NCBI RefSeq assembly: GCF_003788585.1
Contig: NZ_AYKG01000033.1
Coordinates: 1-32,178 of the forward strand
Direction: 5' to 3'
DNA length: 32,178 nucleotides
Origin: Salinisphaera japonica YTM-1
Lineage (GTDB): Bacteria; Pseudomonadota; Gammaproteobacteria; Nevskiales; Salinisphaeraceae
This document shows positions 1 through 28,563 of this stretch, piece after piece (within the stretch, counting starts at the first letter, position 1; each line of letters starts with the position of its first letter). The position numbers were made by a program, and so were the translations under genes. Under the pieces are notes generated by a model. The model saw only the letters and a list, made by a program, of their open reading frames with translations, was not told where the DNA came from and did no database searches.

Positions 1-346
1 TAGTCTGCGGGTGTGCGTCTGTATTCATTCGCGTTTATTTGCGTTTATCTGCGTTCATTTGCGGACGATTTTTTTGAAATAGCCACCAAACCCGCTACGA
101 GCGTCACGGCCGCGTGTGGCCGCGACATGCGCGTCATTAGGATCGGCGTTTCATCTGTGTCCATCGGCGGATAAAACCGTCTGTATCCAGCCGTATTTAT
201 TCGTGGTCATTCGCCAACGGTGTCAAAAGAAACGATCTCGTGGCATGGGCCGTGCTCAAGGCTTTCTTTCAATCTGTGAAATCTGCGTAATCTGCGGATT
301 ATCTTGTCTTCCATTCGCGCTCATGGGCGTCCATTCGCGGACTATT
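1..346. repeat. Degenerate intergenic repeat arms, left edge
   Basis: This gene-free stretch holds at least three forward-oriented arms of the repeat family also found at 7225-7420, 10568-10782 and 28140-28525. Positions 1-55 are the distal half of an arm (10-nt units such as TTTATTTGCG, ending GCGGAC). Positions about 130-222 are a strongly decayed arm. Positions 262-346 are a nearly complete arm with 9-nt units (ATCTGCGTA, ATCTGCGGA) followed by the TTCATTCGCG-type units. The reverse-oriented partner arm seen at the other loci is not visible and may lie left of the window. No real gene is seen here; open frames through the arms result from the 9-nt period. Confidence 0.75.
79..111. repeat. 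Diverged copy of the mscK 3' end
   Basis: Positions 79-111 resemble 359-392, which spans the mscK stop codon. Both share the core GCTACGAGCGT with matching flanks (CCAC/CCATCAA before it, CAC/GATGGC after it). The adjoining arm ends (51-66 and 328-343) also match, so a block of roughly 280 bp carrying an arm end plus the gene terminus appears to have been duplicated in tandem and then diverged. Confidence 0.55.
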
Positions 347-7147: not shown

Positions 7148-7224
7148 GGGATCACCTGATGATGACGACAGCGCTGAGATGGTCGGTCAGCGCTTTGATT
7201 TTGATTGTTCGCGAATTGTTCTGG

Positions 7225-7420
7225 TCCGCGAATACAAGCGAATGAATACAGATATTTATCCGCAGATTACGCAGATTGCACAGCTTGAAAGAGCAGATAA
7301 AACGAACACCTGGTCCGCTTCAGCGCCACTGCGACAGCAAGCCTGCTGTACCGCCTTAGTAATCTGCGTCATCTGTGTAATCTGCGGATTGTCTTTTCTT
7401 TATTCGCGTTTATTTGCGGA
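7225..7420. repeat. Inverted-arm intergenic repeat between cysJ and cysI
   Basis: The 318-bp gap 7148-7465 holds one full element. The reverse arm (about 7225-7291) begins TCCGCGAATAC and contains ATCCGCAGATTACGCAGATT. A non-conserved spacer of about 70 bp follows. The forward arm (about 7361-7420) contains AATCTGCGTCATCTG and ends TATTTGCGGA. The arms are imperfect reverse complements, so transcribed RNA could fold into a long hairpin between the two sulfite reductase cistrons. A second TTCGCGAAT near 7208 may be a relic of an arm end. No gene is visible in the gap. Confidence 0.85.
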
Positions 7421-7465
7421 CGATATGTCTTGTACGAGTTGCACAGCTGCGACGATGCCAAGCCG

Positions 7466-10567: not shown

Positions 10568-10782
10568 TCCGCGAATGAACGCGAGTACGCGCGAATGAAA
10601 AGAAGATAATCCGCAGATTACACAGATGACGCAGATTGACTAAGCGATGCGTCGAACGCGGTGTCGTCGCGACGTTAAAGCTGATTCAAGACTTGTTTTA
10701 TTCGTCTTTTAATCTGTGAAATCTGCGTCATCTGCGGATAAGCGTCTGTATTCATTTGCGCTTATTGGCGTTCATTTGCGGA
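10568..10782. repeat. Inverted-arm intergenic repeat (clearest copy)
   Basis: Lies between convergent yqcC and ctaB (gene-free 10536-10817). The reverse arm 10568-10639 starts TCCGCGAATGAACGCGAG and continues to ATCCGCAGATTACACAG and ATGACGCAGATTGA. A spacer of about 69 bp follows. The forward arm 10709-10782 starts TTAATCTGTGAAATCTGCG, passes CATCTGCGGATAAGCG and ends TTCATTTGCGGA. The two arms are imperfect reverse complements. The arm tips (TCCGCG...GCGGA) are the best-defined ends of the family. No flanking target-site duplication is evident. Confidence 0.85.
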
Positions 10783-28139: not shown

Positions 28140-28525
28140 GAGCACCGGGCTTCGTTGCTTTATTCATCCGCGAATGAACGCCAATAAACACGAATGAATA
28201 CAGACGATCATCCGCAGATTACGCAGATTTCACAGATTGAAAGACAGATTGGTTGCGCTTCGAGTCATGAGCCGAGTTCGACGAACCAAGAGCCGGCCGC
28301 CCTGAAAATCAATCCGCATCATCAGCGTCGAGCGAGCATCGGGCTTCGTTACTTGGCCCGTCCGCAAATAAACGCAAATAAACGCGAATGAATACGGACA
28401 GATTAATTGAACCTTGAGTCATGAATCGAGTTCGACGACTCGAGAGCCGGCTGCTCGGTAAGTCAATCTGCGTCATCTGCGTAATCTGCGGATTGTCTTG
28501 CTTTTCATTGGCGTGCATTCGCGGA
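28140..28525. repeat. Duplicated inverted-arm repeat between rpoZ and spoT
   Basis: The gap 28106-28616 is filled by this element and a terminator. A reverse arm lies at 28167-28245 and a forward arm at 28463-28525. Between them is a second, shortened reverse arm (28361-28412). Two direct duplications show how it arose: GAGCACCGGGCTTCGTT at 28140 is repeated as GAGCATCGGGCTTCGTT at 28334, and GAGTCATGAGCCGAGTTCGA at 28262 recurs diverged at 28416. The shift drops from 194 to 154 bp because the second copy lacks most of the ATCCGCAGATTACGCAG block. No protein gene is seen. Confidence 0.8.
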
Positions 28526-28563
28526 CCGTCCAGAAGAACGCGCCCGCCAACCCGCCAGGCACA

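Follow-up and report, generated by a model that had tools for sequence, protein, structure and literature searches.

The dispersed palindromic elements of the window (the whole stretch of DNA analysed, 32,178 nucleotides, which is part of a 3.26-Mb genome in 69 contigs) possess arms that are kin to the arms flanking genes for GxxExxY proteins, a relationship that is well supported. Each arm is composed of two blocks, and each block matches a separate subfamily of GxxExxY genes, which goes beyond the first-pass annotation of this DNA. The elements probably constitute non-autonomous palindromes, with arms built as arrays of units that GxxExxY nucleases recognise, and once were or still are spread by these nucleases; we put the probability of this reading at roughly 60%.

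Elements in the window

The following features were located (positions are those of the window):

3 to 53, minus strand: partial arm at the contig edge (arm HMM, 28 bits)
142 to 214, minus strand: degenerate arm (arm HMM, 40 bits)
269 to 341, minus strand: full arm, left edge (arm HMM, 61 bits; whole-genome search)
7224 to 7288, plus strand: element 1, left arm (arm HMM, 55 bits)
7360 to 7423, minus strand: element 1, right arm (arm HMM, 49 bits)
10568 to 10599, plus strand: element 2, left arm outer block, three CGCRAAT-type units (sequence; 51-arm alignment)
10600 to 10608, plus strand: element 2, linker type A, AAGAAGATA (sequence; linker comparison of arm pairs)
10609 to 10637, plus strand: element 2, left arm inner block, three CGCAGAT-type units (sequence; 51-arm alignment)
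10641 to 10709, no strand: element 2, spacer
10711 to 10739, minus strand: element 2, right arm inner block (sequence)
10740 to 10750, minus strand: element 2, linker type B, TACAGACGCTT as read on the minus strand (sequence; linker comparison)
10751 to 10782, minus strand: element 2, right arm outer block (sequence; 51-arm alignment; whole-genome search)
28167 to 28240, plus strand: element 3, left arm (arm HMM, 69 bits)
28361 to 28399, plus strand: element 3, extra arm inside, outer block only (arm HMM, 23 bits; whole-genome search)
28463 to 28526, minus strand: element 3, right arm (arm HMM, 52 bits)

The three loci with imperfect inverted arms around a spacer, as described in the first-pass annotation, were recovered with 50/70, 58/73 and 57/74 matching positions between the arms of elements 1, 2 and 3, respectively, and so was the fourth locus at the left edge, where the contig end cuts into a set of three minus-strand arms. 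Several contigs of the assembly start or end at arm repeats (window position 1; C35:71-145; ends of C2 and C67), as if the assembly had broken there. A spacer of about 70 bp, as originally noted, is common (61 and 69 bp in elements 1 and 2, by the arm boxes used) but not general, since element 3 has 222 bp and the range across 15 full-arm pairs is 69-255 bp.

The arm is 75 bp long and has an outer block of three CGCRAAT units and an inner block of three CGCAGAT units, each unit being 9-10 bp in length. In the alignment of 51 full arms, the outer block has the consensus TCCGCRAATGA-ACGCRAATAA-RCGCRAATGAA and the inner block the consensus ATCCGCAGATK-ACGCAGATK-CGCAGATT, and the two are joined by a linker of about 8-20 bases. 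Within the outer block, 161 of 184 unit spacings amount to 9-10 bp; within the inner one, 154 of 157 amount to 9-11 bp. Two linker types recur, A (AAGAAAGAC-like) and B (TACAGACGGTT-like); since A is situated opposite B in 10 of the 15 full-arm pairs, the element has a direction. At the 75 outer ends, the predominant reading is GTCCGC. At L043:1679-1795, a small element has arms consisting of the inner block alone, and single inner-block matches elsewhere in the genome may be more elements of this kind.

Copy number, placement and site history

The window and 32 fetched stretches, 205,609 bp in total, yielded 147 arms in 42 clusters with the arm HMM, whereas dinucleotide-shuffled versions of this sequence yielded none; in the whole genome there are at least 153 arm matches at E<=0.001 (best 150 of 2000 first-look candidates scored). 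Arms thus occur as inverted pairs well beyond the window: among the 39 multi-arm clusters, 38 open with a plus-strand arm and 38 close with a minus-strand arm. The elements had been described as lying strictly between genes, which is nearly right, their overlap with genes being 0.24 compared to 0.84 for random windows in the same loci (rough ORF-based gene calls), and their higher AT-content was confirmed (G+C 0.504 in the elements, 0.631 in the loci). According to the same rough gene calls, the 36 clusters with both neighbours called are situated between convergent (16), co-directional (16) or divergent (4) gene pairs.

Arms are present in 16 of 41 relatives, with counts within the genus from 0 (G004, G012, G013) up to at least 119 (counts per genome include the arms of the GxxExxY gene itself). 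The nearest named relatives of a gene in the window are Salinisphaera strains together with one record labelled Lysobacterales and one labelled Endozoicomonas; these two (Lysobacterales bacterium SP48 and Endozoicomonas sp. G2_2; L009, L015) fall among Salinisphaera by this gene and may be mislabelled. In SP48 (G011) and UBA1666 (G010), arms exist at the matching place for 11 sites of the source genome, in stretches which had been picked for holding arms and are therefore silent on the share of empty sites. Elements at the same site are each other's best match in 7 of 14 comparisons with SP48 and UBA1666, but not in the other 7; half of the comparisons thus point to inherited elements. The element at 10568 ranks 11th of 12 against its same-site element in SP48, the flanks of this site being about 88% alike between the genomes, whereas the elements do not align.

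The site at 7224 is armless in UBA1666 (62 bp versus 294 bp), in SP48 and in Q1T1-3, and Q1T1-3 is armless also at 10568 (158 versus 377 bp) and 28168 (101 versus 416 bp). An apparent degraded arm was seen by eye within the 7224 gap of SP48, and clusters swell or shrink between relatives. As follows from these armless sites and same-site comparisons, elements get lost, gained or replaced with time, yet many sites are old. The comparison of orthologous gaps thus yielded empty sites, but the divergence of the relatives is too great for any insertion junction in Salinisphaera to be placed to the base. Given the many copies, the preference for intergenic positions and the empty sites found at some places in relatives, the earlier designation as non-autonomous palindromic elements is upheld. 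Another inverted-repeat element, about 350 bp long and unrelated, lies within the spacer of one element of SP48 (L065, the site of L032 in the source genome); its host element otherwise resembles the L032 orthologue.

The preponderance of convergent over divergent gene neighbours and the persistence of several element sites in relatives might also be expected of RNA or DNA signals kept by the host (terminators, mRNA-stability hairpins), which would have spread by ordinary duplication and recombination. We consider such an origin very unlikely, as clusters change their size between relatives and same-genus relatives can have none. Furthermore, the complementarity of arms is 0.737 within one element and 0.747 between different elements (15 pairs), which gives no sign of selected arm pairing, and an Rfam search of the window produced no family matches; an RNA element was rejected on these last two grounds.

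GxxExxY genes between inverted arms

In distant members of the class, the same arm grammar is found with other units, and two loci hold a small gene between the arms. It encodes a GxxExxY protein (TIGR04256/PF13366; PD-(D/E)XK nuclease family): all seven proteins tested score above the curated cut-off of TIGR04256, and both GxxExxY proteins of the source genome above that of PF13366. The window has no visible transposase, as stated before; outside it, however, these arms enclose GxxExxY nuclease genes, both in the source genome and in other bacteria.

Across the GxxExxY gene, the best inverted match has a median score of 22.5 in the 46 scorable loci, and 40 of these exceed 13.0, the maximum of 180 control windows shifted along the same loci. 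The 46 remained from 51 loci after removal of L141 (no gene by motif) and of L106, L107, L113 and L129 (too near to contig ends); L136, one of the 40, was scored via another repeat, its arms being visible separately. Among 12 loci fetched later for the question of unit types, 11 lie above all 200 shuffles, L214 and L211 narrowly or with mixed units.

When an HMM was built from dispersed elements only, its positions 1-48 matched the gene arms of the outer type (7 loci) and its positions 25-73 the gene arms of the inner type (9 loci, at one of which a single side matched). Since the two halves match separate gene types, the dispersed arm is a compound of two kinds of gene-flanking arm. The source genome itself possesses one gene per type, at C16:30795 and C10:49842: the outer triplet matches the ends of the former gene and the inner triplet those of the latter (loci L097 and L112 of the source genome, respectively). 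Within the dispersed elements of the window and the 32 stretches, no convincing remnants of a GxxExxY gene were found (best tblastn E 0.10).

Other phyla, plasmids and viruses

A search with one GxxExxY query resulted in 8 matches among 72,556 plasmid records. Arms above all shuffles were found at four of them (Bacteroides, Bernardetia, Gemmatirosa, Sphingomonas), and none passed the shuffle test at the records of Persicobacter, Treponema, Prevotella and Fusobacteria. The same arm build thus recurs in Bacteroidota, Gemmatimonadota and Alphaproteobacteria. The Gemmatirosa replicon contains near-complete palindromes of about 70-85 bp with GAG-type units and the ends GAACCGC...GCGGTTC at 23 places (those covering at least 70 bp, counted by hand). 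The replicon also has 3 gene places, and the gene has a whole palindrome on either side. Target duplication is the usual trace of a cut-and-paste transposase; at 13 young-looking Gemmatirosa copies (14 rows), the longest flanking direct repeat was 3 bp, in one copy.

One plasmid record has 32 bp in common with element 2, and phage records searched with element 3 gave no match. Three viral contigs encode a GxxExxY relative, as found in a pattern-limited search with one subfamily alignment; viral searches with a second alignment and with a single GxxExxY protein revealed no relatives. The gene at L204 lies on a viral contig with a long inverted repeat of the AAATTAAAAG type, the make of which is unlike the unit arms.

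Recurring gene junctions

Two gene junctions at which the GxxExxY gene recurs, in Salinisphaera and in some other families, were recognised without a tool label; we take them to be carA/carB and the two halves of metH. In other genomes, these junctions are empty, uninterrupted (putative metH in G017 and G025), split without a gene, or occupied by arm relics (G001, G004). Apparent arm relics with no working gene are situated between the putative metH halves at L158 (G001), L165 (G004) and L166 (G015), and the split in the gene may date from a former insertion. An armed GxxExxY gene also exists between fabD and fabG of Sphingomonas parapaucimobilis (L175), and insertion between co-directional genes recurs.

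This repeated occupation of the putative carA/carB and metH junctions, empty or with relics in other genomes, would suit a homing-type nuclease at conserved junctions, the arms of which mark or protect the cut sites, with the dispersed arms as recombination debris or decoys. Six further gene loci of other types are not tied to such junctions. The dispersed two-arm elements, moreover, combine both blocks in an outer-inner order that is fixed with linkers of two types, which makes them look like copies of one unit and not like debris, and 23 similar palindromes exist on one replicon of another phylum. Homing is thus an improbable account of the dispersed elements.

Unit type, protein and co-occurrence

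Concerning the reading that GxxExxY nucleases recognise the arms, unit type and protein go together. Six unit labels on a tree of 48 proteins require 9 changes compared to a mean of 28.0 after shuffling, and none of 200 shufflings was as low (the armless L104 and L105 were left out; labels of L107, L113, L118, L122, L132, L133, L136 and L140 were assigned by eye). All 7 proteins of the outer type (AAT) fall into one clade (support 99/76), as do all 11 of the inner type (GAT; support 83/74), while the GAG and AAG types are mixed on the tree with 5 changes each. Protein identity is correlated with arm similarity (r 0.553 in 37 proteins, permutation p 0.0002; 0.439 in the 643 pairs less than 60% identical); both this Mantel result and that of the tree are inflated by orthologous genes at shared sites, and part of the agreement is plain common descent.

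Among the 41 relatives, 14 have arms and gene, 2 arms only, 1 the gene only and 24 neither (p 4.8e-8), and the gene of the sole gene-only relative (G023) carries another unit type. The corresponding numbers for 369 genomes of the class, with at most the 13 best arm candidates scored per genome, are 15, 9, 50 and 295 (p 4.1e-7). A gene of matching type was present in 8 of 12 arm-rich genomes with the gene (at least 3 arm hits; G194, G393 and G403, with one or two, were left out) and in none of the 20 arm-negative genomes whose gene could be typed (p 4.7e-5; counts compiled by hand from the arm, locus and unit-type results). Out of 50 arm-negative genomes with the gene, only these 20 had one of assigned type, each a single gene. 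The match in G123 rests on a mixed-unit gene without a match to the arm HMM, and the four arm-rich genomes with a gene but none of matching type are G103, G163, G199 and G246.

A PF13366 match is absent in 9 of the 24 arm-positive genomes of the class, and a family profile search of the arm-rich G086, G121, G164 and G179 and of the congener G002 revealed no GxxExxY gene; G001 retains a relic of the gene with one stop. Such arm-rich genomes may have retained their arms after loss of the gene, or their arms may be served by a different enzyme.

Accordingly, it might be another enzyme altogether, a RAYT-type Y1 or an unseen DDE transposase, that moves the arms, the GxxExxY genes being passengers or regulators caught inside. 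Besides the arm-rich genomes without the gene, Y1_Tnp is found in 15 of 16 arm-positive compared to 14 of 25 arm-negative relatives (p 0.013), and the lack of target duplications would suit a Y1-type transposition route. However, the Y1_Tnp link is far weaker than that of GxxExxY among the same relatives, element-free congeners also have Y1_Tnp, and the GTAG foot tag of REP hairpins is absent from the 75 outer ends. A unit type matching the GxxExxY subfamily would, furthermore, not be expected of a passenger. We regard this alternative as unlikely; a RAYT partner in particular was not adopted, the Y1_Tnp association being weak.

The GxxExxY protein

In 29 proteins, the catalytic-type residues E35, E85, K87, Q99 and Y103 are invariant and D75 is nearly so, and this order of E, D, ExK and QxxxY is that of RecB/Cas4-type nucleases. 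Pfam assigns GxxExxY proteins to the PD-(D/E)XK class. A sequence search of solved structures with a GxxExxY protein gave no match at E<=10. For L203, a member from a viral contig, the best of five structure models had a mean pLDDT of 82.7 (the others from 65.0 down to 38.8); its Foldseek search gave nothing at E<=0.001, the best PDB match being the weak one to 4ic1 (SSO0001; E 0.038, probability 0.94), a Cas4 protein. Lambda exonuclease and LHK-Exo follow below 4ic1, with unrelated methionine aminopeptidases ranked between them. Weak profile matches exist to Cas4 (E 0.0017) and to PDC-M36A; with nothing beyond these, a defence system was rejected.

In the available text of open-licence papers, no function for the family (GxxExxY, PF13366, TIGR04256, PDDEXK_3) and no report linking a GxxExxY nuclease with mobile repeats was found. 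PF13366, TIGR04256 and PDDEXK_3 occur in one such paper. The name GxxExxY appears in an algal-virus gene table and in a reverse-transcriptase classifier, neither of which deals with repeats or mobility in its available portions, and strings of the arm units had no match in the text (figures excepted) of the open-licence literature.

Proposed mechanism

We infer that the elements may be mobilised by GxxExxY nucleases. The nuclease would bind the arm units, of outer or inner type depending on its subfamily, and would cut at or near the arms, whereupon repair of the break may copy or move the element into intergenic DNA. Copies without the gene would multiply in this way, whereas the gene would remain at one or few copies, and one element may be open to two enzymes owing to the nesting of outer and inner blocks. 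Since arm pairing is not conserved within elements, as judged from only 15 pairs, recognition of each arm by protein is favoured over recognition of a folded strand. The first-pass interpretation is partly supported.

A more far-reaching proposal, to which we would give somewhat less than an even chance, is that GxxExxY proteins represent a class of enzymes for DNA dispersal that has so far gone unrecognised. These would be minimal nucleases which recognise units of 9-10 bp in triplets, co-evolve with them in specificity and spread paired-arm palindromes without target duplication, the nested elements of the window serving two such enzymes at once. If this is true, a large part of the short unit-type repeats found in several bacterial phyla would be explained, and a common protein family without a role so far would obtain a testable one. 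Intergenic repeats of different genomes, which seem unrelated as the unit type is particular to each genome, would then have a common origin. Should the nuclease move DNA, spread would be possible with no classical transposase involved. The unit types with their proteins are ready material for asking how DNA is read by a small nuclease.

Comparison with known systems

ERIC-type palindromes are intergenic and about 100-200 bp long. The elements described here are likewise intergenic palindromes, but they differ in their unit structure and in having a candidate partner gene. With MITEs they share short length, inverted ends, the lack of a gene inside and a high copy number, and also terminal inverted repeats common to a gene-bearing element, represented here by the GxxExxY loci and not by a DDE transposase; unlike MITEs, they exhibit no target duplication in the copies tested (13 Gemmatirosa places). 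By curated cut-offs, the arm-bracketed genes are members of the GxxExxY family (TIGR04256, PF13366). These proteins resemble the PD-(D/E)XK enzymes of the Cas4 and lambda exonuclease kind in the order of their motifs, whereas they differ from Cas4 in being proteins of 130 residues, with no cas locus in the loci read and a fold match at E 0.038 only.

With CGTC read at 27 of the 75 outer ends, CGTC-tagged REPs were considered as well; as the published CGTC repeats are, in the available part of the source, short stem-loops with stems of 8-9 bp (PMC3733652), the elements are not joined to them.

The general organization is similar to that of REPIN/RAYT systems, as far as these are described in the accessible portions of the sources (PMC3116915, PMC3733652): in both cases, many intergenic inverted doublets per genome, patchy occurrence and clusters are found together with few copies of a partner gene flanked by the same repeats. 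Despite this similarity, there are clear differences: The arms here are 75 bp long and made of triplets of 9-10-bp units, whereas REPs are GTAG-tagged stem-loops of 20-40 bp; no conservation of arm pairing is seen here; and the partner is a PD-(D/E)XK protein, whereas RAYT is a Y1 tyrosine transposase. The elements and the GxxExxY genes may therefore constitute a pairing of repeat and gene like that of REPIN and RAYT, with an unrelated enzyme.
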